A DNA stretch of 22,267 bases, from IMG/VR virus record IMGVR_UViG_3300042314_002142, positions 1 to 22,267 of that record; one strand, written 5' to 3'. The notes below the pieces were generated by a model. It was not told where the DNA came from. It made no database searches and was given only the letters and a program-made list of their open reading frames with translations. The position numbers were made by a program, and so were the translations under genes. Below, piece by piece: positions 2,262-18,673 of the stretch (position 1 is the first letter of the stretch; every line of letters starts with the position of its first letter). Source of the DNA: a virus.

Positions 2262-2292
2262 TATAAATAATACATAAATTATTTTATAAATA
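2262..2292 (+). promoter_or_regulatory. Two T4-type late promoter boxes (TATAAATA x2)
   Basis: Exact TATAAATA occurs at 2262-2269 and again at 2285-2292, directly after the helicase stop and before the ATG at 2299. In T4 this octamer is the sole core element recognised by the gp55 late sigma factor, and transcription starts about 6 nt after it. The second box would therefore start transcription at about 2298, giving an almost leaderless mRNA. The first would give a leader of about 24 nt. No Shine-Dalgarno sequence lies between. Confidence 0.7.
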
Positions 2293-2298
2293 CACTAT

Positions 2299-3831
2299 AT
2301 GTCAAAACTAACCGAATTTAAACGTTACCTAACAGAGGCGCTCTCTACATCATCTGTAGAAAAAGCTGCATTCATCATTCAACGCTACCTTAAGAAAAAG
2401 ACTGGTACTACATTTTTTAAATATCCTGGATTAGAAAAATACAAGAATCCTAATGGCACTGGTTTTGGACTACGTCTTTACTCGGCAAAGCGCAATATGA
2501 GTGTACGTTTTAACTGGACACAAAGCTCACTTGTAGGGCTTAATAATCTTACTTCGATAGATTATTGGAACGGTAAAAATCCAGTTCCTTTTCATATTGA
2601 ATTTGATCAGAGTGTCTCTCTTGTAAAGACTTTGCCTATTATCGCAGACATCTTAAGCGCTGGAACTGCCGAACTTGGCAAGATTTACAGCATGCCTGAC
2701 GAGGTGCCACTCTATGAAGGAGTGCTAAATGAAGCACGTAGCAGTCATGACTTTGAAGCTATTTTTGATGAGATTGCTGACTATCTTGTTGACCCAAACT
2801 TTGTAAAAAGTAAGATTTACAGCATGTACGGCATTCCTGGAGTCAAGATTTTTGACGCTCTTTCGGCAGCATATCCAAACTATATTGAAAAGCAAGGCAT
2901 CAAGTATGTCTGGGTTGGCAAGGCAAAAGACCTAAAGCAGATCAAAGCTGAAAAGGGAAAGATTATGGCTCGTATTGGAGTCGTGTCTGGTACAGTTTCA
3001 AAAGGTGCAGCTAAAGAAAAATACAGTTATTCTCCGGAAGTAGAACAAATTGAAGCAGATCGTGAGCGCCTATCATTTGAAGCTCAGCTAAAAGATCTTG
3101 AAAACCTAGTTAAACTCACTGTTAGCGGCGCATCAAATGCGCTCTTTGTTTCTGGTAAGGGTGGAGTTGGTAAAACTCATACAACTGAAAAGATACTTGC
3201 TGATATGGGACTGCGCGATGGCAATGGTTATTTTAAAAATACCGGTTCCGCAAGTGCTGCTGGTCTCTATTCATTGTTGTTCCGTTACAAAAATGATATT
3301 GTTTTCTTTGATGACAGTGACGACGCACTTGGCGATCAGGAAGCTCGTAACCTATTAAAGGCTGCTACTGACACCAAAAAGATTCGTAAACTTGTTTGGA
3401 ATAAAATGGGTAAAAATGTTGTCGATCCTGAAAACGACATGAGCGACGATGAAATTATCGATCAAGGATTGATTCCACGCTATTTCGAATTTACTGGTAA
3501 AATTATCTTTATCTCAAACCTTAACCTTGACAAACTTGATCCAGATGGTGCACTACGTACACGTGCTTTTATCATCAACATCGATCCTACTGAAGTTGAA
3601 ATCTATGACTTTATGGAAAAGATTGTCGGTGACATGAAGCTTGAAGACGGTTTATCACTTGATCAAAAAGCTCGTTTGCATGTCGTAGATCTTCTTCGTA
3701 AAGGCAAAAGCAAACAGAGTGCTAACCTTCGTAAACTATCACGCGGCTTAAATATGGCAGCAGGCGCACTTGCTGCCGGCGTTGAAGTATCTGATGGTGA
3801 CCTTGCTCGTATGATCGAGTCCTACGCATAA
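2299..3831 (+). CDS. AAA-type ATPase with N-terminal capsid-targeting-like peptide
   Basis: A 510-aa protein. Residues 1-13 (MSKLTEFKRYLTE) match the T4 internal-protein targeting peptide (T4 IPIII begins MKTYQEFIAE), with a gp21-type cut expected after E13. Residues about 20-130 form a domain of unknown function. Two further LxE sites, LYE140/G and LNE145/A, mark a junction. The C-terminal half is a P-loop ATPase: Walker A GKGGVGKT (286-293), Walker B IVFFDD (D338, D339), a sensor-1-like N407 in FISNLN, and arginines in LRTRAF (420, 422). This suggests an AAA+-like motor or remodeler packaged in the head. It has its own late promoters. The ATPase call is firm; packaging is inferred from the N-terminus. 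The target is unknown. Confidence 0.8.
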   Translation: MSKLTEFKRYLTEALSTSSVEKAAFIIQRYLKKKTGTTFFKYPGLEKYKNPNGTGFGLRLYSAKRNMSVRFNWTQSSLVGLNNLTSIDYWNGKNPVPFHIEFDQSVSLVKTLPIIADILSAGTAELGKIYSMPDEVPLYEGVLNEARSSHDFEAIFDEIADYLVDPNFVKSKIYSMYGIPGVKIFDALSAAYPNYIEKQGIKYVWVGKAKDLKQIKAEKGKIMARIGVVSGTVSKGAAKEKYSYSPEVEQIEADRERLSFEAQLKDLENLVKLTVSGASNALFVSGKGGVGKTHTTEKILADMGLRDGNGYFKNTGSASAAGLYSLLFRYKNDIVFFDDSDDALGDQEARNLLKAATDTKKIRKLVWNKMGKNVVDPENDMSDDEIIDQGLIPRYFEFTGKIIFISNLNLDKLDPDGALRTRAFIINIDPTEVEIYDFMEKIVGDMKLEDGLSLDQKARLHVVDLLRKGKSKQSANLRKLSRGLNMAAGALAAGVEVSDGDLARMIESYA

Positions 3832-3857
3832 AATAAACTAAATAAACTAAATAAACT
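3831..3857 (+). repeat. Three tandem copies of a 9-bp unit (AAATAAACT)
   Basis: AAATAAACT is repeated exactly at 3831-3839, 3840-3848 and 3849-3857, between the ATPase stop and the ATG at 3865. The repeat begins on the last base of the stop codon and ends in an A-run before the start. It replaces any recognisable Shine-Dalgarno sequence. It may be a slippage product, or an A-rich unstructured leader that helps translation initiation. Confidence 0.9.
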
Positions 3858-3864
3858 AAAAAAA

Positions 3865-4428
3865 ATGGAAAACAAACATCTAATTGAAGCCGCTAGAAAT
3901 ATTCTAGAAAATAATACTAACGATACCACTTCTATTCAAGAAATCTCTACTAATGAACAATTTATAGAGGAAATCGTTCGTGCTATAGTTGAGGAAAAAC
4001 AAGAACTTAATGAAGTACCTGCCGTAAGTTTTTCTATTATAATGGACTTTTGTATTAACGTAGCTGCGCAACAACTTGGCTCCGGTGCTTCTCTTATGTA
4101 TATACGGGCTCTCGCTGCTACTTATTTTGCATTGGTTGTAGTGGGTCCATTTGTATTATTATCACTCTATAGTCGAGGAGTTGGAGGAACACTTGAGCCT
4201 TGGGTCATTGGACCATTTAGAGGAATATGGAATGCAATTAAAGGAAAATATATTCTTAAACCAGACGAATTAGAAAAAGCAGCCGATAATGTAAAAGCTC
4301 TACTCACCGGAAATGACAAAGGCAAAATTACTCGTTTGACTAATGCTATGAAAAAGAACATAGAAAATAAAGATTGGGAGTCTGCTCAAGTTGTTGCAGA
4401 CCAACTTTATAAACTCATTAAAAAATAA
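3865..4428 (+). CDS. Hypothetical protein with one transmembrane segment
   Basis: A 187-aa protein that I do not recognise. Residues 1-50 are helical and acidic. Residues 54-70 are moderately hydrophobic, and 79-102 form a clear membrane helix (MYIRALAATYFALVVVGPF onward). The remaining ~80 residues are basic and helical with a KIIK/KLIKK-type C-terminus. An LNE at 48-50 followed by V-P-A resembles a prohead-protease cut site and would separate the acidic N-terminal piece from the membrane part. The N-terminus lacks the FKxYI signature of its neighbours, so packaging is uncertain. It lies between the ATPase gene and a strong terminator, and so ends a transcription unit. A membrane role in the virion or the infected cell is possible but not shown. 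Confidence 0.75.
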   Translation: MENKHLIEAARNILENNTNDTTSIQEISTNEQFIEEIVRAIVEEKQELNEVPAVSFSIIMDFCINVAAQQLGSGASLMYIRALAATYFALVVVGPFVLLSLYSRGVGGTLEPWVIGPFRGIWNAIKGKYILKPDELEKAADNVKALLTGNDKGKITRLTNAMKKNIENKDWESAQVVADQLYKLIKK

Positions 4429-4458
4429 TTTATCTCTATTATAACCTTTAAAAATATG

Positions 4459-4491
4459 CTGGGATCCTAGTTTTAGGATCCCAGTTTTTTT
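4459..4491 (+). terminator. Rho-independent terminator
   Basis: A perfect 11-bp stem, CTGGGATCCTA (4459-4469) with TAGGATCCCAG (4474-4484), encloses a 4-nt GTTT loop and is followed by seven T residues (4485-4491). It lies 30 nt after the stop of the membrane protein gene, with no gene overlapping it, and closes the 2299-4428 unit. It is the clearest terminator in the window. Confidence 0.95.
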
Positions 4492-4498
4492 ATAAGTA
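4491..4498 (+). promoter_or_regulatory. Late-promoter-like box TATAAGTA
   Basis: TATAAGTA differs from the T4 late consensus TATAAATA at one position. It directly follows the T-run of the terminator and lies 8 nt before the ATG at 4507. Initiation about 6 nt downstream would leave a leader of only about 3 nt. Its position between a terminator and a start codon supports it. Confidence 0.5.
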
Positions 4499-4506
4499 GT
4501 TTTAGA

Positions 4507-4971
4507 ATGATAAGTATCAAGGTACATGGCGCCAAACGTGACCGCCGCCTTTACAATCTTATAAAAAATGCTGCATATTTTTATCTAAAAACACTGTGTC
4601 CACGCATTCGAAAGATGCGCATAGTAATTCAACTTATTGATAATTTGTCAGAATCTGAACGTGTGCATGGTGACTGTTGTCAATGTGGAGTCGATGAACC
4701 AGACATTGACTATATTGTAAGACTCAATAAAAGTGATTCATATCATCTTATGTTAACGATACTAGCACATGAAATGGTTCATCTTAAGCAGTATGTTCGA
4801 AGAGAGCTTGTCCTTTATAGCGGCGACAACGAGGGTGCCCGATGGAAAGGAGTCTACTGTTCAGAATATGACTATGACTCTGCTCCGTGGGAAAAGGAAG
4901 CGGACGAGCGTGAACTTGAACTCTATATGACGTTTTTTGAAAGTTGTTCATTGTTGAGAGGGTATAAATAG
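4507..4971 (+). CDS. SprT/WSS1-like zinc metallopeptidase
   Basis: A 154-aa protein with the gluzincin-type motif HEMVH (residues 88-92), where H88 and H92 bind zinc and E89 is catalytic. A downstream acidic helix WEKEADERE supplies a probable third ligand (E131). The N-terminal ~80 residues have the mixed strand-helix pattern of small SprT-like domains, and C57, C58 and C60 (CCQC) could add a minor metal site. SprT-like proteins cut DNA-bound or misfolded proteins; the phage target is unknown. The gene starts its own unit after a terminator and lies beside CTS-bearing genes, but its own N-terminus (MISIKVHGAK) has no such tag. It is therefore more likely to act in the infected cell. The family call is good and the role open. 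Confidence 0.8.
   Translation: MISIKVHGAKRDRRLYNLIKNAAYFYLKTLCPRIRKMRIVIQLIDNLSESERVHGDCCQCGVDEPDIDYIVRLNKSDSYHLMLTILAHEMVHLKQYVRRELVLYSGDNEGARWKGVYCSEYDYDSAPWEKEADERELELYMTFFESCSLLRGYK
4963..4970 (+). promoter_or_regulatory. T4-type late promoter box TATAAATA
   Basis: An exact TATAAATA overlaps the last codons and stop of the metallopeptidase gene and lies 17 nt before the ATG at 4988. Initiation about 6 nt downstream gives a leader of about 12 nt without a Shine-Dalgarno sequence. Confidence 0.65.
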
Positions 4972-4987
4972 TTAACAGACACAAAGC

Positions 4988-5926
4988 ATGAAAAGTTTTA
5001 AACAATATATTTATGAAATTGAATCTATGATGACCTACGATAACTTAGTAAATATTTTAATTTCATTAGGGTATGACAAAATTAAAAAAATATCTGGAAA
5101 TAAAATTGCAGTTCTTGTTAATGATAACCGAGTAACAACTCTTGAAAAAATTAATAAGAATATTAAAGGATCAATATACGATAGAAATCCTAGTTCTGAA
5201 AGTAGTGTAGGACGTGTTAACATATCAGGCTTTTCTATTCTAGCTAAACCAGCTTCTAAACAGGGAAGCGCCAGTGCTGGTGTAGAAAACGAACAAATTA
5301 TTGTCGACACGATCAATAAAAGAACAAAAACTGGTCCAATTAATGTAATTTTTAAAGCAAAGAATAAAAAATTCACTGTTTTAAATTGTGTTAAAGCCAT
5401 TCAAGTTGGAGGAGATACTGCTGGAAGAAAAAAGGCAGATATTGTATTAATTAATTCAAAAAATAAGAGATATCCAATTTCAATTAAAAAGGATAATGCC
5501 GAAACATGGGAAAGCGCAGATAGTTATTTTGGTCCTACTGCATTAAAAATAATCAAAAAGGCAATAAAAGACAAAAAAACTAAACTTGTCAGCGAAGGCA
5601 GTTATTTTAAAATAGAACCTAACATTGCAGTTGAAGCCACACAAGCAGAAAAACAAGCCGTTGTTTTTGGTTCAGATTTAGAAAATGGCGGAGCGGTTGT
5701 CACAAAAACATTTGGTAGTTCGTCATTTTCTGATGACGGCGATACTTTAGTTGTTGATTGCTCTCACATAATTACATCTTTAAGTGATGTTAAAGGAGAC
5801 AAGGACGTATATTTTCTTATAAGAAATGATAAGACTCGTAAATCATTAAAGGAATATCCTGGCATTAGAATATTAGCTGTCTATACAAAGAGAATAAACC
5901 AAAACGTAGTAGTCGTTAAACGTTAA
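4988..5926 (+). CDS. Putative packaged PD-(D/E)XK-like endonuclease with CTS-like N-terminus
   Basis: A 312-aa protein. Residues 1-10 (MKSFKQYIYE) match the capsid-targeting consensus, with a cut expected after E10. Residues about 95-180 look like a restriction-endonuclease fold. There is a conserved acidic pair (E100, E102) on a helix, then GRKKADIVLI with D151, then a strand YPISIKKDN with K167, then ETWES with E172 and E175. The residue two before the lysine is serine (S165), not acidic. Cfr10I-type enzymes have a similar serine, with the glutamate moved downstream, and E172 or E175 could play that part. The rest (200-312) is strand-rich and unassigned. This suggests a nuclease delivered with the phage DNA, perhaps to attack host DNA. 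The CTS is seen directly; the nuclease call is moderate. Confidence 0.65.
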   Translation: MKSFKQYIYEIESMMTYDNLVNILISLGYDKIKKISGNKIAVLVNDNRVTTLEKINKNIKGSIYDRNPSSESSVGRVNISGFSILAKPASKQGSASAGVENEQIIVDTINKRTKTGPINVIFKAKNKKFTVLNCVKAIQVGGDTAGRKKADIVLINSKNKRYPISIKKDNAETWESADSYFGPTALKIIKKAIKDKKTKLVSEGSYFKIEPNIAVEATQAEKQAVVFGSDLENGGAVVTKTFGSSSFSDDGDTLVVDCSHIITSLSDVKGDKDVYFLIRNDKTRKSLKEYPGIRILAVYTKRINQNVVVVKR

Positions 5927-5934
5927 TTTATTTT

Positions 5935-7173
5935 ATGATTACTTTTAAACAATACATAACAGAAGCAAGTACGGAAGGTAAAAATCTTCATATGGTTCAT
6001 ATTGAGGATCAAGTGCTCTATGGCGGTGTAAAGGGCGCTCGTGAAGCAATCATTGCATTACGCAGTATGAGAGACATGTTAGCTGGAAACAGTCCACAAT
6101 CATATGATGTTGCTGCAAAGTTTGACGGTGCTCCAGCAATATTTGTTGGAACTGATCCATCAGACGGAGCATTTTTTGTTGCCAAGAAAGGCATCTTTAA
6201 TAAAAATCCAAAAGTCTATAAGAGTGAGCGTGATATTAAGGCTGATACAAGTGGCGACCTTGCAGAAAAATTAACTGTAGCATTTAATGAATTTAAAAAA
6301 CTAGGCATTAAAGGAGTATTGCAAGGAGATCTTGCCTATACACAAAAAGATTTAAAGACAGAACGTTTTGACGGTGTTGAATATCTTACATTTCAACCAA
6401 ACACAATTGTCTATGCAATTCCTGCTGACAGCACTCTTGCAAAAACTATAAAGGCATCTAAGATTGGTGTAATGTTTCATACACAATACTCTGGAGACTC
6501 TTTTGAAACGATGAAGGCTTCTTATGGCTTTGATTCAGGCACTCTTAAAAAGACGTCTAGTGTATGGTTTTCAGACACATACATACGTGATCTTTCAGGC
6601 AAAGCTACTCTAACCGCAAAGGAGACTGAAGAGTTAACAACGATTCTATCAAAAGCAGGGTCGCTCTTTCAAAAGATTAGTGGTTCAACTCTTCGTGAGA
6701 TCGAGTCAGATCAATCACTTGCACAGACTCTTGAAACATTCAACAACACACTCGTGCGACGCGGTGAAACTATAATCGATACCTCTGCTCATGTTCGCAA
6801 TCTTCTTGCATGGATAAATGACAAATATGCAAAAGACATTGAATCTAAAAAGAGTGAAGCTGGCAAAGCAAGTGCGACTGCTAAACGTGATGAGTTTTTA
6901 AAGTTTTTCTCTGACGAAAACAAGAAAAACCTAGAACTTGTCTATGCATTACAAAACGCTATCGTTGAAGCAAAACTTATTATAATACGCAAACTTGAAA
7001 CACTTAAAAAGATGTCAACTTTTGTTCGTACGACTGACGGTTTTAGAGTAACAGGGCAGGAAGGCTTTGCTATCAATGATCATATAAAACAAAATGTGGT
7101 CAAGCTTGTCGACCGAATGACCTTCTCTAAGAATAACTTTGATCCAAATATAATAAAGGGTTGGGAGAGATAA
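5935..7173 (+). CDS. Ligase-like covalent nucleotidyltransferase homologue (KxDG) with CTS-like N-terminus
   Basis: A 412-aa protein beginning MITFKQYITE/A, with the predicted prohead-protease cut after E10. The body matches a recurrent T4-like phage family (I believe DUF6267). It carries AAKFDGAPAIF, a K-x-D-G motif (K62, D64, G65) like motif I of DNA/RNA ligases and capping enzymes, where lysine takes AMP or GMP. Further conserved blocks are FFVAKKGIF (80-88), GVLQGDLAY (127-135, acidic D132 in a motif-III-like position), FQPNTIVYAIP (153-163) and IGVMFHTQYSG (177-187). The C-terminal ~200 residues are helical and lysine-rich. It may seal or modify nucleic-acid ends as a packaged enzyme. 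I cannot place motif V with confidence, so it may be a non-ligating relative. No promoter or Shine-Dalgarno sequence precedes it (9-nt gap). Confidence 0.7.
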   Translation: MITFKQYITEASTEGKNLHMVHIEDQVLYGGVKGAREAIIALRSMRDMLAGNSPQSYDVAAKFDGAPAIFVGTDPSDGAFFVAKKGIFNKNPKVYKSERDIKADTSGDLAEKLTVAFNEFKKLGIKGVLQGDLAYTQKDLKTERFDGVEYLTFQPNTIVYAIPADSTLAKTIKASKIGVMFHTQYSGDSFETMKASYGFDSGTLKKTSSVWFSDTYIRDLSGKATLTAKETEELTTILSKAGSLFQKISGSTLREIESDQSLAQTLETFNNTLVRRGETIIDTSAHVRNLLAWINDKYAKDIESKKSEAGKASATAKRDEFLKFFSDENKKNLELVYALQNAIVEAKLIIIRKLETLKKMSTFVRTTDGFRVTGQEGFAINDHIKQNVVKLVDRMTFSKNNFDPNIIKGWER

Positions 7174-7176
7174 GCG

Positions 7177-7806
7177 ATGCCATACTTAAATCATAACACT
7201 CCGAATATTACATGTTTCATAAGAAACGAATATCTTTTTAATCATGAAAAGGGTCATGGCGAATATACTCCTGCTAATATACACTCAGTAGCTTCTATTG
7301 AAAATCGTGTTCCACTCTTTGAAGCATTCTTGTCGAATGGTGTAAACTGGACCCGTCGTCCGCTGTCTGCGTTTTGTTGGAAAGAGTGTGATCCGCTTCC
7401 ACTCGAAGAGCTTGTCTACTGGGACTGCTTTAGTCCGTATATTGATGTTTCTATTCGCTCTCGCTTTAGGGGTTTGAGAGCAGAACTTATAACTCCATCA
7501 ACTGCTAAAGTCTGGGGTGAATATCTCTTTACTCTTGATTGGGCTTGGGAAAATAAAGGGGTATTAGACACAAACTTTTCAGAGACAAGCGAACATAAGT
7601 GCGCTCATCTTTTTAAAGCGGACAGTGGTCATTTTTATGCATATCCAAACAATCGAATCTTGTGGCATGACAAAGCATGGAGTGATGAGCCTATAACATG
7701 CAATCCAGGATATAAGATTGATAGCAATATATACAGTGTAGAAAACACAAAAGTTAGCTATACTGATGATCAATATATGACAAACTTTACAGCAACACCG
7801 CTATGA
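7177..7806 (+). CDS. Conserved T4-like phage protein of unknown function
   Basis: A 209-aa protein rich in aromatic residues, with a strongly conserved-looking core (HGEYTPANIHSVASIENRVP, then NGVNWTRRPLSAFCWKE, then WGEYLFTLDW). I associate this protein with T4-like phage genomes but know no function. There is no membrane segment, CTS or metal motif. About 10 His and 9 Trp are spread through the protein. GGGAG about 10 nt before the ATG could be a Shine-Dalgarno site, but it also encodes the preceding protein's C-terminus. The gene follows the ligase-like gene by 3 nt and overlaps the next gene by 4 nt (ATGA), so translation is probably coupled. Confidence 0.75.
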   Translation: MPYLNHNTPNITCFIRNEYLFNHEKGHGEYTPANIHSVASIENRVPLFEAFLSNGVNWTRRPLSAFCWKECDPLPLEELVYWDCFSPYIDVSIRSRFRGLRAELITPSTAKVWGEYLFTLDWAWENKGVLDTNFSETSEHKCAHLFKADSGHFYAYPNNRILWHDKAWSDEPITCNPGYKIDSNIYSVENTKVSYTDDQYMTNFTATPL

Positions 7807-8249
7807 TACAAACATTTAAAGAATTTTTATTGGAGAATACTGCCTATTATAGAGGCTTGTCAAAGAGTACGTCTGATAAACGAAGCGCTCATTTTAATCG
7901 TCAGACCCGTATGAGTGATGATGATGCAGCTGCATACAAACCTGCGCCTGGAGATGCACGCGCCGATACAAAGACGTCTAAATGGACGCAGGCATATGCC
8001 GACAAATACGGAGAAGAGCTTGAAGAATCAGAAACAAGTGCACTTCAAAAGAAAGCAGAAAAGACTGGCATAGCATACAGCATTCTTAAAAAAGTATTTG
8101 ATCGCGGCATGGCTGCATGGAAAACTGGTCATCGGCCAGGAGCCTCACAGCACCAGTGGGCATATGCTCGCGTCAACAGCTTTATTATGGGTGGACCTAC
8201 TCAAAAGACTACAGATGCTGACCTGTGGGCGCAGCATAAGGGTAAATAA
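7803..8249 (+). CDS. CTS-bearing small protein with conserved C-terminal domain (DUF5824-like)
   Basis: A 148-aa protein starting MIQTFKEFLLE/N, a good match to the capsid-targeting peptide with a cut after E11. A linker of about 60 residues, rich in Asp, Ala and Lys, follows. The C-terminal ~70 residues hold a compact domain with KTGIAYSILKKVFDRGMAAW, then GHRPGASQHQWAYARVNSF and a terminal DLWAQHKGK. I recall this as a small phage domain (DUF5824-like) also fused to other virion proteins. A further LEE/S site at EELEESET just before the domain could release it. The domain is small and basic, consistent with nucleic-acid contact, but no activity is known. ATGA overlap with the previous gene indicates translational coupling. 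Confidence 0.75.
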   Translation: MIQTFKEFLLENTAYYRGLSKSTSDKRSAHFNRQTRMSDDDAAAYKPAPGDARADTKTSKWTQAYADKYGEELEESETSALQKKAEKTGIAYSILKKVFDRGMAAWKTGHRPGASQHQWAYARVNSFIMGGPTQKTTDADLWAQHKGK

Positions 8250-8250
8250 G

Positions 8251-8258
8251 TATAAATA
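8251..8258 (+). promoter_or_regulatory. T4-type late promoter box TATAAATA
   Basis: An exact TATAAATA starts 2 nt after the stop of the preceding gene and ends 12 nt before the ATG at 8271. Predicted initiation about 6 nt downstream gives a leader of about 7 nt, with no Shine-Dalgarno sequence. Its intergenic position makes it one of the best late-promoter candidates here. Confidence 0.75.
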
Positions 8259-8270
8259 TATAATCTGCAT

Positions 8271-8963
8271 ATGAAAAAAGAAGTAAGACTCAAAGATCTA
8301 CTAACAGTTGACCCTACAGATGGCTCATATAACTATGATCCGCTTGACATTATGATCACTGCATACAAAAAACGCAAACGAGATTGGATGATCAGTGAAG
8401 AGGACCCAGAATGTGAGTGTCCAGTAGATTGTGATTGTGACTGTGACTGTGACTGTCATGACATAGAAGAGTCTGTCTATGATACTATGTCAAAACATGA
8501 GTTGAATGCAGAACTTCGTAGAATTAATGACGAACTTAAAAAATTAAAGTCTGCTGAAAAAACAAAAGACACACTCAACAAAATAGGAATATTGACTAAT
8601 GCTCGTGATAGTGTGTTGCAAATGCTAAACGAAGAAACAATTGTTGAAGTATTAACTATTCAGCAACGTATGGCACGCCGTGCAGCTATGCGTCGACTCA
8701 AGAGTCGCATAAAGGTTGGTCGCGAACGGGCAAAACGCCGTCGCGCATCAAATGAAGTATTAAAAGCTCGTGCACGTCGCGCAGCTCGTAACCAACTAGC
8801 TAAACGTTTACTTGGAGGCAAGAGCAAAAGTGAAGTATCCTATGCTGCACGTTCACGAGTTGAAAAGGCGCTGTCAAAACAAAAAAATCTTATAAATTCT
8901 TTAGCAGCAAAGTTATTAACACAAGTGCGGGCAAAGGAAGTTGCACGATTTAGAAAAAAATAA
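8271..8963 (+). CDS. Arginine-rich probable internal virion protein with Cys-Asp repeat tract
   Basis: A 230-aa protein with two contrasting halves. The N-terminal part is acidic and holds alternating Asp-Cys (C48, C50, C54, C56, C58, C60, C62, then H63), a likely metal-binding tract. The C-terminal ~100 residues (from about 131) are very basic (QQRMARRAAMRRLKSRIK, GRERAKRRRASNEV) and helical, like phage internal DNA-condensing proteins. The halves are split by LNE121/E and IVE126/V, which fit prohead-protease cut sites, so an acidic propeptide could be removed in the head. The N-terminus MKKEVRLKDLL is only loosely CTS-like. It is led by a late promoter and followed after 4 nt by a tagged enzyme gene. 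Packaging is inferred from composition and context. Confidence 0.7.
   Translation: MKKEVRLKDLLTVDPTDGSYNYDPLDIMITAYKKRKRDWMISEEDPECECPVDCDCDCDCDCHDIEESVYDTMSKHELNAELRRINDELKKLKSAEKTKDTLNKIGILTNARDSVLQMLNEETIVEVLTIQQRMARRAAMRRLKSRIKVGRERAKRRRASNEVLKARARRAARNQLAKRLLGGKSKSEVSYAARSRVEKALSKQKNLINSLAAKLLTQVRAKEVARFRKK
8427..8456 (+). repeat. Five tandem 6-bp units GAYTGT encoding Asp-Cys
   Basis: Five in-frame copies of GAYTGT (two GATTGT, three GACTGT) encode D-C-D-C-D-C-D-C-D-C inside the basic virion-like protein. The synonymous third-base change shows that the units have been kept at protein level after duplication, and the tract can expand or shrink by slippage. Confidence 0.9.
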
Positions 8964-8967
8964 AATT

Positions 8968-10023
8968 ATGGGAGTTCACTTAAAATCATTTAAGACATAC
9001 ACTGAAGAAAAGACTTCTGAAATTATAGTTTCTTTTGGTCGTTTTAATCCGCCTACACACGGTCATGAAGAAAATATTGAAGCCATAGCAAAACTTGCAA
9101 AAGGTAAACCATTTAGAATATACGCATCTCAAAGTGAAGATCCAAAGAAAAATCCTTTGGGTTATGAGGAAAAGATTAAATTTATGCGTAAAATGTTTCC
9201 ACAATATGGTCGCAATATTATATTAGATCGGTCTGTTAAAAATGTATTTGACATAGCAACAAGTGCATATGATGAAGGTTATACTCGCTTTACAGTTGCT
9301 GTTGGTAGCGATCGTGTTGAAGAGTTTAAGGCATTGCTTCGTAAATATGACGGCGTAAAGGGCACGCATGGCTATTATAAATTTCCTGATGGCATAAACA
9401 TTGTATCAACTGGTCAACGTGATCCTGATATTGACAGTCGTACTGGTGCAAGTACCTTTGCCGTTAGTGCTAGCAAGATGAGAAGCGCAGCAGCAGACAA
9501 TGATCTTGAAACTTTTGCAAAGGGCGTGCCAAAGACATACGGCGACGTAAAGGATCTTTTTAATGCAGTGCGCAAAGGCATGGGACTAAAAGAAAGTCAT
9601 AGTTTTAGAAAACACGTTCAGTTTGATACATTAAGCGAAACTCGTGAACGTTATATCTCTGGTGAGATATACAACGTTGGAGACTCTGTAGTGACGATAA
9701 AAGACAACACAGAATATAAGATTGCCAGTCGTGGTCCTAATTATGTGACATGTGTAAATGAAACTGAAAACAAACAAGTTAAATTTTTTATACATGACAT
9801 ACGAGAAAAGTTGATGCTCGACGAAGAAACATGGGAGGCTGGTTATGAGCGTCGAGTTGTAAAGGTTACCAAACCAGATCGTTTAGAAGCTGGATATAAA
9901 TGGAGAATAAAGGGCAAAGATGACTCTTCACGTACAATTAAATATTACAAAGACAAACCAGATTTCGAAGAATTTAAAGCACAAATGCAAAGAGTAGCAG
10001 GTCATGAATTTGGAACTCGATGA
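8968..10023 (+). CDS. HxGH-type nucleotidyltransferase (cytidylyltransferase-like) with CTS-like N-terminus
   Basis: A 351-aa protein. The start chosen is the ATG at 8968, which gives MGVHLKSFKTYTEE with the capsid-targeting signature. An earlier TTG at 8941 would overlap the previous gene. Residues 19-205 are a nucleotidyltransferase Rossmann domain: GRFNPPTHGHEENI (24-37) is the G-x-F-x-P-x-H-x-G-H motif, and SASKMR (167-172) is the S-x-x-x-x-R nucleotide-binding motif near its end. Relatives transfer CMP or AMP, as in CTP:glycerol-3-phosphate or NMN adenylyltransferases; the substrate is not readable here. After an LSE224/T site, a C-terminal piece (about 230-285) has a KOW-like strand pattern (YNVGDSVVTIKDNTEYKI). 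The family call is firm, packaging inferred. Confidence 0.8.
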   Translation: MGVHLKSFKTYTEEKTSEIIVSFGRFNPPTHGHEENIEAIAKLAKGKPFRIYASQSEDPKKNPLGYEEKIKFMRKMFPQYGRNIILDRSVKNVFDIATSAYDEGYTRFTVAVGSDRVEEFKALLRKYDGVKGTHGYYKFPDGINIVSTGQRDPDIDSRTGASTFAVSASKMRSAAADNDLETFAKGVPKTYGDVKDLFNAVRKGMGLKESHSFRKHVQFDTLSETRERYISGEIYNVGDSVVTIKDNTEYKIASRGPNYVTCVNETENKQVKFFIHDIREKLMLDEETWEAGYERRVVKVTKPDRLEAGYKWRIKGKDDSSRTIKYYKDKPDFEEFKAQMQRVAGHEFGTR

Positions 10024-10885
10024 AGAATATGGTGCCGGCTTTGAGGGCACAAAAGGCCTATTGTATAAATATATAAAAGACACCCCTGGGCAAAGCATAC
10101 AACAATATATGAAAACTAAAAGCTTATCTGAAATACTAAAAAAGAGCGATCCGGTCGGAGATTGGATTCGTGATTTTATTGACAGTGACAACTCCCGCTT
10201 TGCCGGAAAGTCAAAAAAAGAACGCATCAATATGGCACTCGGTGCATACTATGCTGCTCAACGCAATGAGAGCACAGCAGAAGTTGAACTTGAAGAAAGC
10301 ACAGTCTCTGCAAGTCAAATCAATCGATATATCGATACAGAAAACTGGAAAGCAATTGCTGACTTAATGAAGGGTCTAAACGATGATGAACACGAATTGT
10401 GGGCAAAAAACGGTTATGATGGACGTACCTATGAGTTGATGATGAAATCTCGTGAACGTTCTAAATCTTATAAAGATGCAGTTGAGAAGATGAAAAATAC
10501 ATTAGGTGTAAAAGAGTCTACACAAATTGATGAAATGCGCGAACTCTATGCTGTAGTAGACACTACAGACGGCACAGTAGTTGCAACTTCATCAAGTGAA
10601 GACGGAGCAAAGCGTAGCATACGCAGCGCACACCTTCCGCCAATTTCAAGTGAGCATCCGTCAAAGCTAAAGATTGTAAAGACTAAAAAGACTGCACAAG
10701 TTGGCTATCCAATCAAGGAAGAGACTGAAATAGGTTTAGACACTCTTCGTATCATGAAGATAGTTTCACTTGCTACTGGCAGCAAAGACATGGATGCACT
10801 CTATGAGTATGCATCCACATCACCAAGCTATTCTTCAATTGTAGAACTAAAAGAAGCCTTTAATAAGTATATTCAACAAGCATGA
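10004..10885 (+). CDS. Modular probable internal virion protein
   Basis: A 293-aa protein that overlaps the preceding gene by 20 nt and the next by 4 nt (ATGA). Residues about 40-88 hold SLSEILKKSDPVGDWIRDF, then DNSRFAGKSKKERINMALGA, a module I recall from many T4-like phage virion-associated proteins, with no known activity. A second helical segment (100-165) and a strand-rich segment (180-230, LYAVVDTTDGTVVATSSS) follow. The modules are separated by LEE98/S, IDE177/M and IKE239/E, all of prohead-protease type. No FKxYI peptide is present at the N-terminus, although SLSEILKK resembles the tag of the following gene. It may be a packaged multi-domain protein cut on maturation, but this is inference. 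Confidence 0.65.
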   Translation: MNLELDEEYGAGFEGTKGLLYKYIKDTPGQSIQQYMKTKSLSEILKKSDPVGDWIRDFIDSDNSRFAGKSKKERINMALGAYYAAQRNESTAEVELEESTVSASQINRYIDTENWKAIADLMKGLNDDEHELWAKNGYDGRTYELMMKSRERSKSYKDAVEKMKNTLGVKESTQIDEMRELYAVVDTTDGTVVATSSSEDGAKRSIRSAHLPPISSEHPSKLKIVKTKKTAQVGYPIKEETEIGLDTLRIMKIVSLATGSKDMDALYEYASTSPSYSSIVELKEAFNKYIQQA

Positions 10886-12024
10886 AATCATTAAACGAAA
10901 TTTTAAACGAATCATCTGGTGACGAGCTGCTCGGTCGCATGATGGCAGAATATAAGGTATTTATTTCTACGCTAAAATCTTTAGGTTTTGAAAAGGCTCC
11001 AATCGGATCTTCTACATACAAACCAGGACCTAATCGTGGAAAAGTAGAAGAACTTTGGGGCATTCCAATGCGTGCTGGAAAATGGGCAGACATCTTTTTT
11101 GCAGTTATGTATGATGACCGCCTTCCATGGCGTTTAATCGACCGTGATGGCACTGAAAGCTATGCCAAATTAAATGATGTCAATAAGGCACTCATGAAGC
11201 GTATACGTACCATCAAAGAAGAGCAGTCTGATGACGAAACAGATGCTATATATGAGCAGGTCAAAGTTGATGCCACTTTGGTTAAAGCGCTTAAAAAGCG
11301 CGGATTTGTTGAGGCTCCAGTTAATAAATTTGCTGGTCATTTTTTTGGCATTAAAAACATAACAAAGGGAAAGATTCAGCATATCTATGGTGTGTCAACT
11401 CGTCCCCGGGTTTGGATAAATCTATTTTTTATGGTCTTGGACGATGAGACTCACCCATATGCAATAGTCTATCGCGGTGCAGATTCGCAAATATTCTCTG
11501 ACTATAATGCTGCTCTTAAGGCGCTCGATAAAACGAAAGCAGAATTTGATCGAGAAGATTTTTACAGCGAAAGTACTGAAGATGAAGAAGTTGATCCAAC
11601 CGGAGAAGCACTATCAGAACTAGAAGACATTTGTGAAATGGCAGATGAATTATATGAGACTCTCTCTGACCTTGATGAAATTGATTCTGAAACGCGCGAA
11701 AGTATTACAGCAATCTATTTAGCACTTGATGATCTCTATGAAACCGTAGATAAAAAATATGAAGTCACAGTTGATGCAGATGAGTATGAAGAAGTAAACG
11801 AAGAGGTTGATATGACCCGCTTTAAGCAACTTGCTTCTACTGGACTTGTATCAAGAGAAGAACTTCCTAAACTCGTACTTGCTATGCGTGCACTTGACGC
11901 AGACAAACCGCTGTCAATGTCACAAAAAGATCTTATAAATTCAACATTTCAATCACTTATTGCAATTGTAACTGGTGATACAAGCGTACTCTCAAAGGTA
12001 AAAAGTAGCATCGCTAACAACTAA
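10882..12024 (+). CDS. Probable packaged protein with an internal domain duplication
   Basis: A 380-aa protein starting MKSLNEILNE/S, a variant of the capsid-targeting peptide. Two homologous domains follow. Residues 28-108 contain LKSLGFEKAP and GKVEELWGIPMRAGKWADIF; residues 133-218 contain LKKRGFVEAP and GKIQHIYGVSTRPRVWINLF. They share order and spacing, with IKE113/E between them. Residues 230-305 are strongly acidic. The C-terminal ~70 residues (MTRFKQLASTGLVSREELPK, then a helix ending in VTGDTSVLSKVKSSI) form a separate conserved-looking module that I recall as the tail of other T4-like phage proteins. Function is unknown; the two domains could bind a repeated or symmetrical partner. 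It ends the block, with a 140-nt gap after it. Confidence 0.7.
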   Translation: MKSLNEILNESSGDELLGRMMAEYKVFISTLKSLGFEKAPIGSSTYKPGPNRGKVEELWGIPMRAGKWADIFFAVMYDDRLPWRLIDRDGTESYAKLNDVNKALMKRIRTIKEEQSDDETDAIYEQVKVDATLVKALKKRGFVEAPVNKFAGHFFGIKNITKGKIQHIYGVSTRPRVWINLFFMVLDDETHPYAIVYRGADSQIFSDYNAALKALDKTKAEFDREDFYSESTEDEEVDPTGEALSELEDICEMADELYETLSDLDEIDSETRESITAIYLALDDLYETVDKKYEVTVDADEYEEVNEEVDMTRFKQLASTGLVSREELPKLVLAMRALDADKPLSMSQKDLINSTFQSLIAIVTGDTSVLSKVKSSIANN

Positions 12025-12151
12025 TTCTATCTCGCCTTAAAACCCATTATCCATCCGTCCCGGAACTTTCAGGTTATAGTTTTTTTATCAAGGTATTTTA
12101 GGAAGCTTTTATTGAAAGGAATGTATATTATTATACCAATCAAACCCAAGA

Positions 12152-12159
12152 TGTAAATA
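12152..12159 (+). promoter_or_regulatory. Weak late-promoter-like box TGTAAATA
   Basis: TGTAAATA differs from TATAAATA at one position and lies 5 nt before the ATG at 12165. Initiation 6 nt downstream would fall exactly on the start codon, giving a leaderless mRNA. It is the only late-type box in the 140-nt gap. A TTGAAA at 12112 lacks a convincing -10 at normal spacing. No strong terminator is visible in the gap. Confidence 0.3.
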
Positions 12160-12164
12160 ACAAA

Positions 12165-13469
12165 ATGCCGAACTACACTAAAAATTATACGCTGTCTCGT
12201 AAGATAGAAGACTTTCTTGATTCTAATACTGTTTCAACTAATCAATCAATATTACAGTCTGAAACAGCAGGTGATGCATTTGGACGACTACGTACATCAT
12301 CGCCGCTTACTCTATTTGATTCTAGTCATAGATTTGCTGATAATGGTCTTTGGAGTACTGGTGTAGCTGGTAGCGGTACAGCAACATTTAATGCAAACCA
12401 AGGTCTAATTGATTGTAGTGTTACTGCACTGTCTGGCTCATCTGTAAAGCGAGAAACGACGAAGGTTTTTTCATATCAACCCGGAAAGTCACTGTTAGTT
12501 CTTAACACATTTGTAATGTCATCTGCAAAAGCAGGATTAGTGCAACGTGTAGGATATTATGGTGCCGATAATGGCATCTATTTTGAACTTGATGGCACGA
12601 CTTTAAATATAGTAAAACGCACAATTGTAAATGGATCTTTGCAAAATATCAAAATACCACAATCGCAGTGGAATGGTGATAAACTATTAGATGGAACCGG
12701 TTCGTCTGGGCTTACTCTTGATATTTCTAAAGCACAAATTTTATGGATGGATTTTGAATGGTTGGGAGTTGGCAGCGTTCGAGTTGGTTTTGTAATTAAT
12801 GGAAAATTTGTTGTATGTCATACATTTCATCATGCTAATATAATTGCTTCTACATACATAACTACTGCTTCACTGCCATTGCGATACGAAATCGAAAATG
12901 CCTCTAACACTGGCAGTACAAGTACTCTTAAGCAAATATGCTCTACAGTAATTTCAGAAGGTGGATATCAACTATATGGAGCGCAACAAAGCATAGGCAC
13001 TGCAATTAATGCTCCATATAATTTAATAACTGCTGCGGGCACTGATTATCCAATACTTACGATGAGATTAAAATCTACAAAACTGGATGCAGTTGTAATT
13101 CTTACTGCTCTTTCAATATTACCTGTATCAACAACTAACTATAAATGGAAAGTAGTTTCAGGAGGCGCAACTACTGGTGGAAGTGGACTTTGGCAGCCAG
13201 CATCGGCAGATTCAGCTGTAGAATATAAGATGGATGCTAGTGCAATTACCGGTGGAAGAATATTGGCATCTGGTTATATGAGCTCTACAACTCAGAGCAA
13301 ACCTTCCCTTGATATTTTAAAAGAAGCGCTATTTAAATTTCAACTTGAACGCAATGGTTTAAGTGGAGTTCCAAATGAATTATCATTAGTAGTTTCCGCG
13401 AGCACTGCCTCAGGTGGTAATCCAGCACAAATTCACGCATCTCTAGATTGGGAAGAAATCTCACGCTAA
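12165..13469 (+). CDS. Virion structural protein of the marine T4-like type
   Basis: A 434-aa protein, mostly beta and rich in Ser, Thr and Gly, with the stretches AFGRLRTSSPLTLFDSSHRF, then YQPGKSLLVLNTFVMSSAK, then QRVGYYGADNGIYFE, and TLKQICSTVISEGGYQL. I recognise this as a protein repeatedly found in marine T4-like phages and usually listed as a virion structural protein. Its exact location (head decoration, fibre or baseplate) is not known to me. There is no CTS, signal peptide or membrane helix. The C-terminus (SLDWEEISR) looks complete. It is the only clear structural protein in the window and follows the block of tagged cargo genes, which supports late expression. Confidence 0.75.
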   Translation: MPNYTKNYTLSRKIEDFLDSNTVSTNQSILQSETAGDAFGRLRTSSPLTLFDSSHRFADNGLWSTGVAGSGTATFNANQGLIDCSVTALSGSSVKRETTKVFSYQPGKSLLVLNTFVMSSAKAGLVQRVGYYGADNGIYFELDGTTLNIVKRTIVNGSLQNIKIPQSQWNGDKLLDGTGSSGLTLDISKAQILWMDFEWLGVGSVRVGFVINGKFVVCHTFHHANIIASTYITTASLPLRYEIENASNTGSTSTLKQICSTVISEGGYQLYGAQQSIGTAINAPYNLITAAGTDYPILTMRLKSTKLDAVVILTALSILPVSTTNYKWKVVSGGATTGGSGLWQPASADSAVEYKMDASAITGGRILASGYMSSTTQSKPSLDILKEALFKFQLERNGLSGVPNELSLVVSASTASGGNPAQIHASLDWEEISR

Positions 13470-13475
13470 TATATT

Positions 13476-13790
13476 ATGATGCGTTTTAAAGAATATATCT
13501 CTGAGCAGGCAGAATATGATGGTCGTAAGGTGACTCTCAATGAACCGTGGCGTAGCGACGATGAAAAGCATAAGTTTTATGTCTATGTGCGTAATGAAAA
13601 GGGCAACGTCATAAAACTTGGATTTGGTGATCCAAAGGCAGAGATTAAACGAGATGATCCAGAGCGTCTAAAAAACTTTAGAGCTCGCCATCAGTGTGAT
13701 ACAGATCCGGGTCCAAAGTGGAAGGCTCGTTATTGGAGCTGTAAGTTTTGGGAAAAGGGACAGACTGTAACTGATTTATTGTCGAAGTAA
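13476..13790 (+). CDS. Small CTS-bearing protein with conserved phage domain
   Basis: A 104-aa protein starting MMRFKEYISE/Q, a close match to the capsid-targeting peptide with a cut after E10. Either of two adjacent ATG codons (13476 or 13479) may be used. The rest is one compact domain with KVTLNEPWRSDDEKHKFYVY, FGDPKAEIKRDDPERLKNFR, ARHQCDTDPGPKWKARYWSC and KFWEKG. I recall this domain from many T4-like phages, alone or fused to other virion proteins, with no known activity. It has two cysteines and an RRx-type basic surface, consistent with nucleic-acid binding but not proof. It is separated from the main tagged block by the structural gene, so tagging is not confined to one operon. Confidence 0.75.
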   Translation: MMRFKEYISEQAEYDGRKVTLNEPWRSDDEKHKFYVYVRNEKGNVIKLGFGDPKAEIKRDDPERLKNFRARHQCDTDPGPKWKARYWSCKFWEKGQTVTDLLSK

Positions 13791-18644: not shown

Positions 18645-18673
18645 TGTACATTTGAGTCACACTAGTGTATAAT
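18645..18673 (+). promoter_or_regulatory. Sigma70-type promoter of the RNase H gene, predicted leaderless
   Basis: TGTACA (18645-18650), a 17-nt spacer and a perfect TATAAT (18668-18673) fill the gap between the nuclease stop and the ATG at 18680. Initiation 7 nt after the -10 falls on the A of the ATG. The 11-mer TAGTGTATAAT at the -10 is identical to that of the promoter at 21979-22007. Confidence 0.75.

Follow-up and report, generated by a model that had tools for sequence, protein, structure and literature searches.

The closest described counterparts of the system considered here are the internal proteins of bacteriophage T4 (IPI, IPII, IPIII, and Alt), whose unrelated bodies follow a short N-terminal peptide, the capsid-targeting sequence (CTS), with four key positions and an [I/L]xE end. 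In IPIII, residues 4 and 7 serve targeting and residues 8 and 10 processing; ten CTS residues are enough for incorporation, and fusions reached the host (PMC9026906; here and below, statements on cited papers refer to the accessible portions of their texts and tables). Since the same review proposes that T4-like phages can take up a variety of proteins by means of the CTS, the principle of such loading is already known. Here we describe IMG/VR virus record IMGVR_UViG_3300042314_002142, a linear sequence of 22,267 bases that was analyzed at its full length (hereafter the window), in which seven predicted proteins, and an eighth in variant form, begin with a comparable peptide (hereafter the tag; Table 1). 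We hold with considerable confidence that these are T4-type capsid-targeting tags, which would dock their proteins in the prohead, be cut by a gp21-type protease, and let the freed proteins exit with the DNA. In contrast to T4, with its few small basic proteins and Alt, at least seven tagged proteins, mostly enzyme-like, are encoded in one block; and whereas CTS-based loading has been demonstrated in T4, the phage behind the window is known from its sequence alone.

Two further systems bear comparison. The DarB/Dar antirestriction proteins of phage P1 likewise use an N-terminal signal to load a large protein into a myovirus head, but this is a different head system, and its authors found no consensus among the Dar N-termini (PMC9024508). 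The phage polyvalent proteins (Iyer et al. 2017, PMC5512222) share the idea of enzyme arsenals packaged in capsids; they combine many domains per polypeptide, whereas the window has separate genes, each tagged. No link between a capsid-targeting sequence and cyanophage or marine enzyme cargo appears among the literature titles and abstract openings surveyed; the new elements are the enzyme cassette, with a DUF6267 protein that resembles RNA ligases, and the wide range of tagged cargo.

Table 1. Features of the tagged block in the window (positions are those of the 22,267-base sequence)
Feature	Position	Strand	Tag or site	Remarks
Two TATAAATA sites before the first tagged gene	2262-2269, 2285-2292	+	TATAAATA	same arrangement in sister record
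Tagged AAA-type ATPase, 510 aa	2299..3831	+	MSKLTEFKRYLTE at 2299-2337	
TATAAATA site before the 4988 gene	4963..4970	+	TATAAATA	exact site
Tagged nuclease-like protein, 312 aa	4988..5926	+	MKSFKQYIYE at 4988-5017	
Tagged DUF6267 protein, 412 aa	5935..7173	+	MITFKQYITE at 5935-5964	DUF6267 6.5e-97
Tagged DUF5824 protein, 148 aa	7803..8249	+	MIQTFKEFLLE at 7803-7835	
TATAAATA site before the 8271 gene	8251..8258	+	TATAAATA	exact site
Variant-tagged protein	8271..8963	+	RLKDLLTV at 8286-8309	
Tagged cytidylyltransferase/NMNAT-like nucleotidyltransferase, 351 aa	8968..10023	+	MGVHLKSFKTYTEE at 8968-9009	
Tagged protein, no assigned function, 380 aa	10882..12024	+	MKSLNEILNE at 10882-10911	
Untagged virion structural protein family	12165..13469	+		phrog_1645, head and packaging, 1.2e-130
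Tagged protein, no assigned function, 104 aa	13476..13790	+	MMRFKEYISE at 13476-13505	phrog_7595

A shared N-terminal tag on unrelated proteins

A sequence-only reading had pointed out seven open reading frames (ORFs) with such N-termini, and all were found, start and tag, where it had placed them. Its view that the bodies are unrelated also holds: they show no mutual BLAST similarity at E 0.01 and fall in different Pfam or PHROG families, or none. Of the tag ends, which it gave as [I/L]xE or a close variant, six of the seven have [I/L]xE itself, and the consensus of the seven ORFs is [FL]xx[FYI][ILT]xE. A search of the 31 called window ORFs with the pattern M-x(0-8)-[FYL]xx[FYI][ILMVTFC]xE matched seven, with 0.21 expected for one start per ORF (P 1.5e-9) or, counting all 91 starts tried, 0.62 (P 3.3e-6); the expected counts derive from the rate of the tag core in protein interiors, and both P values are post hoc, as the pattern was written from these same seven tags. 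The variant-tagged product of the gene at 8271 has relatives starting with MKSFKEYIAE, MLRLKEYIEE, MKSFAEYLFE, and similar peptides.

The concentration of tags recurs in a sister record of 173,760 bases in IMG/VR, whose DUF6267 protein is 99% identical to that of the window: 7 of its 268 called ORFs combine an ATG start with the tag, all at 40,230-52,479 in a block of 14 ORFs (P 1.9e-10). With a looser pattern, admitting ATG, GTG, and TTG starts and with the expectation set for one start per ORF, the numbers found and expected were 11 and 1.3 in phage C48C1, 7 and 0.8 in Melnitz, 6 and 0.7 in DLP6, 14 and 2.1 in S-CRM01, 8 and 1.6 in T4, 3 and 0.9 in S-SZBM1, and 7 and 0.7 in S-CREM2. As more than one start was tried, these expectations are underestimates, and some of the matches look like chance. 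The ORF filter of this count had missed the tagged S-SZBM1_192, and three genomes were rescanned without it; a T4 match inside uvsW was dropped as it begins at an internal Met, and in S-SZBM1 a fourth ORF, of 51 aa, fits the looser pattern.

That the similarity reflects a feature of start regions at the DNA or RNA level, or chance among AT-rich starts, would agree with tags that begin at or a few residues from the start codon of an AT-rich genome. Nevertheless, the codons vary synonymously at the fixed positions F4, K5, I8, and E10, so the constraint acts on the protein, which disfavors a DNA-level signal. A strict DNA pattern for MK[ST]FKx[FY]IxE scanned over IMG/VR viral contigs found at least 120 stretches versus 7 for the same codons scrambled, and this, the rates in protein interiors, and the clustering of tagged ORFs disfavor chance as the origin of the tags. 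We regard either origin as extremely improbable.

Correspondence to the T4 capsid-targeting sequence

The four conserved positions of the window tags are those given by T4 genetics (4, 7, 8, and 10). Aromatic or hydrophobic residues occupy positions 4 and 7 in all seven, and the processing site, [I/L] at 8 with E at 10, is present in six. In the families of the 2299, 5935, and 8968 proteins (named, here and below, by the start of the window gene), F dominates column 4 and Y or F column 7 of an alignment anchored on these columns, and E stands at column 10, which was not an anchor, in 24/35, 44/63, and 34/57 relatives, respectively. The tag is found in 52 of 55 relatives or fragments of the 2299 family. 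In the 13476 protein it adjoins a conserved body, EYxGxxVxL, and in that family 38 of the 41 distinct junctions, whose leaders differ, place an [IL]xE no more than seven residues ahead of the conserved Tyr; the junctions are homologous, so the 38 are not independent events. In both predicted structure models the tag is a low-confidence segment separate from the folded body. T4 IpI itself starts with MKTFKEF. In most features that sequence can test, the tag fits a T4-type CTS, and comparison supports its predicted cleavage.

The proposed mechanism further involves a gp21-family protease. None was seen in the 22-kb window, which is a genome fragment; the sister record encodes homologs of gp21 (Peptidase_S77 at 2e-44), gp22, gp23, and gp20. 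We propose that the tagged genes would be transcribed late, together with the head genes; that the tag, through its aromatic residue or Leu at position 4 and aromatic residue or Ile at position 7, would dock its protein on the scaffold core while the prohead assembles; that the gp21-type protease would cut after [I/L]xE; and that the freed enzymes would remain beside the DNA inside the head and enter the host together with it.

A hypothetical T4 gene, 61.1 (AF158101 18966-19130), starts with MKTFKEFIKE and is located between genes 61 and 41, near the slot of the window block, which begins just after a gp41-type gene. Judged by its start, 61.1 may be an unrecognized T4 internal protein.

Genomic setting and late-promoter-like sites

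The gene content of the window is T4-like. The tagged block sits between a gp41-type helicase gene, whole in the window at 870-2258, and genes for the ribonucleotide reductase small subunit (15135) and large subunit (16149, identified by eye), with a gene for an exonuclease-family protein at 18665. DUF6267 has matches in 403 phage-collection records and gives as the nearest annotated relatives phage C48C1, the Methylophilales phages Melnitz, Stenotrophomonas phage DLP6, cyanophages, and Pelagibacter phage HTVC008M.

The octamer TATAAATA, which we take to be the T4 late promoter core, occurs exactly seven times in the window, always on the coding strand (1.97 expected; 2 of 100 shuffles reach seven). 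In addition to the sites in Table 1, these lie at 10064, 14128, and 17973. The sister record has 50 occurrences, 45 on the coding strand, and some of these lie 6-17 nt before gp21, gp20, gp14, gp13, and the gene that opens the block; its 12-kb block contains five coding-strand sites and two more on the other strand. None was found on the coding strand of the adjoining 24.8 kb of that record (52 ORFs, including gp41, a recombinase, and DNA polymerase).

Virion proteomes of related phages

Published virion proteomes allow the packaging prediction to be judged through relatives. In cyanophage S-CREM2 (219 coding sequences, 52 virion-detected proteins; PMC10665884 Table 3), 5/7 tagged versus 47/212 untagged products were detected (Fisher p 0.009), and with 26 structural or lysin proteins set aside the proportions are 5/7 and 21/186 (p 5e-4). 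A permutation within length bins gave p 0.005, with gp85, gp130, and gp200 entered with whole N-termini but shortened lengths; in the comparison without length bins, other patterns gave p 0.003 to 0.009. The tagged and detected proteins are the SAM hydrolase gp6, gp13, the APH-like kinase gp14, gp136, and the cytidylyltransferase gp154. The virion-detected cytidylyltransferases are tagged in all four phages compared (S-CREM2 gp154, S-SZBM1_140, S-SCSM1_91, and S-SM1_190). A kinase is also detected in S-CRM01 virions according to the S-CREM2 paper (PMC10665884), and this is presumably the tagged S-CRM01 kinase, which starts with MISFDQFLSE. The NMNAT/cytidylyltransferases, kinases, and SAM hydrolases of the virions of S-CREM2, S-CRM01, S-SCSM1, S-SZBM1, and S-SM1 resemble the present system in having a related cytidylyltransferase with the same tag, and in S-SZBM1 and S-SM1 the neighborhood of that gene is also the same as in the window. 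The word N-terminal occurs nowhere in the S-CREM2 paper (PMC10665884), and the accessible parts of the other cyanophage proteome papers name no targeting signal.

Several observations weigh against the capsid-targeting interpretation. Two of the seven pattern matches of S-CREM2, both shorter than 90 aa, are undetected; only one of the three tagged S-SZBM1 proteins is in its 30-protein virion list, with _191 and _192 missing; and the proteome authors allow for carry-over in CsCl preparations. The 8968 tag ends in TEE, with T in place of [I/L] at position 8, and the variant 8271 tag lacks the E. A filter-free rescan of the sister record added two matches beyond the block, of which one is preceded by 55 open codons and the other starts at an internal Met. 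HTVC008M shows no excess of tags (2 pattern matches versus 1.1 expected), and 48 of 91 members of the 5935 family match the strict pattern, with many of the others looking like variants.

The undetected S-SZBM1 proteins, the possible carry-over, and the position of the block between the gp41-helicase and ribonucleotide reductase genes would also suit a shared N-terminus that acts as a docking peptide for an intracellular phage complex (e.g., in replication or nucleotide synthesis), whose members reach virion preparations by carry-over. We consider this improbable: S-CREM2 virions are enriched in tagged proteins even when protein length is controlled for, the motif agrees with T4 CTS genetics (PMC9026906), and the same tag precedes unrelated cargo such as ADP-ribosyltransferase-like and adenylate-kinase-like proteins. 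Moreover, the coding-strand TATAAATA sites accompany the block and the head genes and not the 24.8-kb stretch with gp41, recombinase, and polymerase genes. Returning to packaging, the sequence logic, the S-CREM2 proteome, and the cytidylyltransferases of S-SZBM1, S-SCSM1, and S-SM1 bear out the earlier prediction, while the two undetected S-SZBM1 proteins do not; the tag thus predicts virion content in one relative and only partly in another, and judged through relatives the packaging of tagged proteins is well supported.

Two further virion proteins have tag-like segments. S-CREM2 gp12 (L003:7704-10313), which is annotated as Cas9 and found in virions, has RFASFMAE at residues 18-25 and lies outside the main-pattern count; its leader resembles, by eye, the start of S-CRM01 128c. 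S-SCSM1_93 (L258:5508-5717), a 69-aa annotated virion protein encoded near the tagged NMNAT, has a C-terminal tag-like FKEFLEYIE.

Predicted activities of the tagged proteins

The ATPase reading of the 2299 protein is backed by phrog_1250 (2e-27), with a Pfam AAA_16 match (4.6e-5) below the curated cut-off; it is related to nrdC.10 of the T4-like phage Ac42. The HxGH-type nucleotidyltransferase reading of the 8968 protein was confirmed at the family level (phrog_395 at 1.9e-63). The match of the 7803 protein is to the C-terminal end of phrog_3041, a cytidylyltransferase profile of 678 positions; a domain that apparently shares one polypeptide elsewhere thus has its own tag here.

The DUF6267 protein (5935) had been read as ligase-like, and its predicted fold (predicted local distance difference test score 84) agrees. 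All of the best 50 VIA matches are RNA, tRNA, or DNA ligases, the best having Z 8.7 over 185 residues at 3.7 A, a score that the tool itself rates as middling; the Foldseek match was weak (best E 0.05). K62, D64, and G65 are invariant across 35 aligned DUF6267 sequences (K62-x-D64-G65), and K-x-D-G is motif I of the RNA/DNA ligases, which are covalent nucleotidyltransferases. A Pfam scan gave no ligase family, only DUF6267 and a sub-threshold CBM46. The modeled fold and the motif therefore support a ligase-like protein outside the Pfam ligase families. The nuclease reading of the 4988 protein fared less well: a KADI...ISIKK motif is seen by eye, and the fold search gave no clear nuclease match, with the PD-(D/E)XK enzyme HinP1I (Z 5.6 over 165 residues) at rank 49 below rows that cover the N-terminal part.

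These assignments bear on the possibility that the tag does target the head but that the proteins, instead of being delivered effectors, help to assemble the head or to condense the DNA. In favor of this, IPIII of T4 influences head assembly (PMC9026906), and the 12165 gene, inside the block, encodes a member of a virion structural family. Further, if the 8271 protein were cut at IVE|V, behind residue 126, a very basic piece of 104 aa (8649-8960; pI 12, 34% K+R) would be released that is akin to T4's basic internal proteins. Against such a role, no structural function is evident for the ligase-like, nucleotidyltransferase, ATPase, and nuclease-like bodies, and the cargo differs among near-identical phages (see below); we regard it as unlikely, if less so than intracellular docking. 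Because enzyme-like proteins bear the head-loading label of T4, the phage probably ships an enzyme kit into the cell with its DNA. Our best guess is that the injected kit would serve early repair or counter-defense, with ligase-like and NMNAT-like enzymes present at time zero.

Exchange of cargo and gain of the tag

In the slot just upstream of the DUF6267 gene, the 312-aa tagged protein of the window occurs in 4 contigs and an unrelated 248-aa protein, tagged in the sister record, in 11 (loci of one contig counted once, more diverged copies left out). Near-identical phages hold different tagged cargo in the same slot.

Among the 11 entries of the 4988 family, the window protein is the sole tagged one. 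Of the ten relatives (69-41% identity), one is truncated, and the nine whose N-terminus is covered are untagged and start near Met14/15 of the window protein. Some of them also adjoin a distant DUF6267 gene. Most simply, these alignments suggest that the tag was placed in front of an older start at Met14/15. Ahead of the start codon of one untagged relative (L240:690-780), the frame contains RSF-stop-KRFIK, possibly the remnant of a decayed tag or a chance resemblance.

The DUF6267 proteins S-SZBM1_141, S-CRM01 132c, and S-SM1 189 are untagged and start near the predicted mature end of the tagged ones; S-SZBM1_141 is not in the virion list of its phage. If the capsid-targeting interpretation is right, DUF6267 would be a predicted ligase-like protein that is head cargo in the tagged lineages and not in the untagged cyanophages.

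Breadth of the tag in viral contigs

Among the listed matches to the strict pattern, 126 of 135 are plausible ORF starts, the nine left out comprising five short ORFs and four with long open frames upstream; a Shine-Dalgarno-like sequence precedes 59 of the 126. The cargo falls into at least 65 groups whose bodies share no BLAST similarity at E 1e-4, and in a Pfam scan of representatives of 40 of the 65, 29 had no family at E 0.01. Families above the Pfam cut-off include adenylate kinase (3e-41), HD_4 (3.6e-16), ART-PolyVal (9.7e-24), DUF5661, and DUF5662, and below it ADPrib_exo_Tox (5e-4) and RNA_ligase (1.7e-5). In one locus (L334), the tagged RNA_ligase-like gene lies near a tagged gene that is by eye of the cytidylyltransferase type. 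Peptidase_S77 is encoded on 10 of 16 tag-bearing contigs versus 1 of 7 scrambled-pattern contigs over the cut-off, with one more below it; the samples are small, and a fragmentary contig can miss the gene for trivial reasons.

It seems fairly likely, if less so than the capsid-targeting interpretation of the window, that the tag is a portable code, a swappable label across T4-like viruses that could be placed ahead of almost any protein, and that the 65 or more groups sample a large hidden class of injected effectors. If so, the enzyme set that a phage carries into its host could be read from sequence alone, and candidate virion-delivered proteins could be listed in the same way for uncultured phages. 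Such candidates would likely act during the opening minutes of infection, the time at which host defenses are active. There would also be a testable rule for why NMNAT-like proteins, kinases, and SAM hydrolases occur in cyanophage virions, whether as carry-over or as cargo.

Other features of the block and related loci

One 14-kb contig (L322:5915-9422) encodes five tagged genes of five sequence groups in tandem. In the window, the untagged gene at 10004-10885 encodes GAGFEGT...YIKDTPGQ, which resembles, by eye, a tagged 55-aa ORF of another locus (L286; GAGYWGT...YVTDTPGQ); on this resemblance the untagged neighbor may belong to the packaged set. The 187-aa protein encoded at 3865-4428 has several [L/I]xE sites early in its sequence followed by a hydrophobic stretch, and the loci include 3 matches to it. 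The gp41-type helicase of the sister record (G001:52518-55125) is interrupted exactly between residues 195 and 196, giving two ORFs; an ORF that is HNH-like by eye lies between the halves on the other strand, and a GIY-YIG-like ORF, also identified by eye, is found in the block at 50223-50924.

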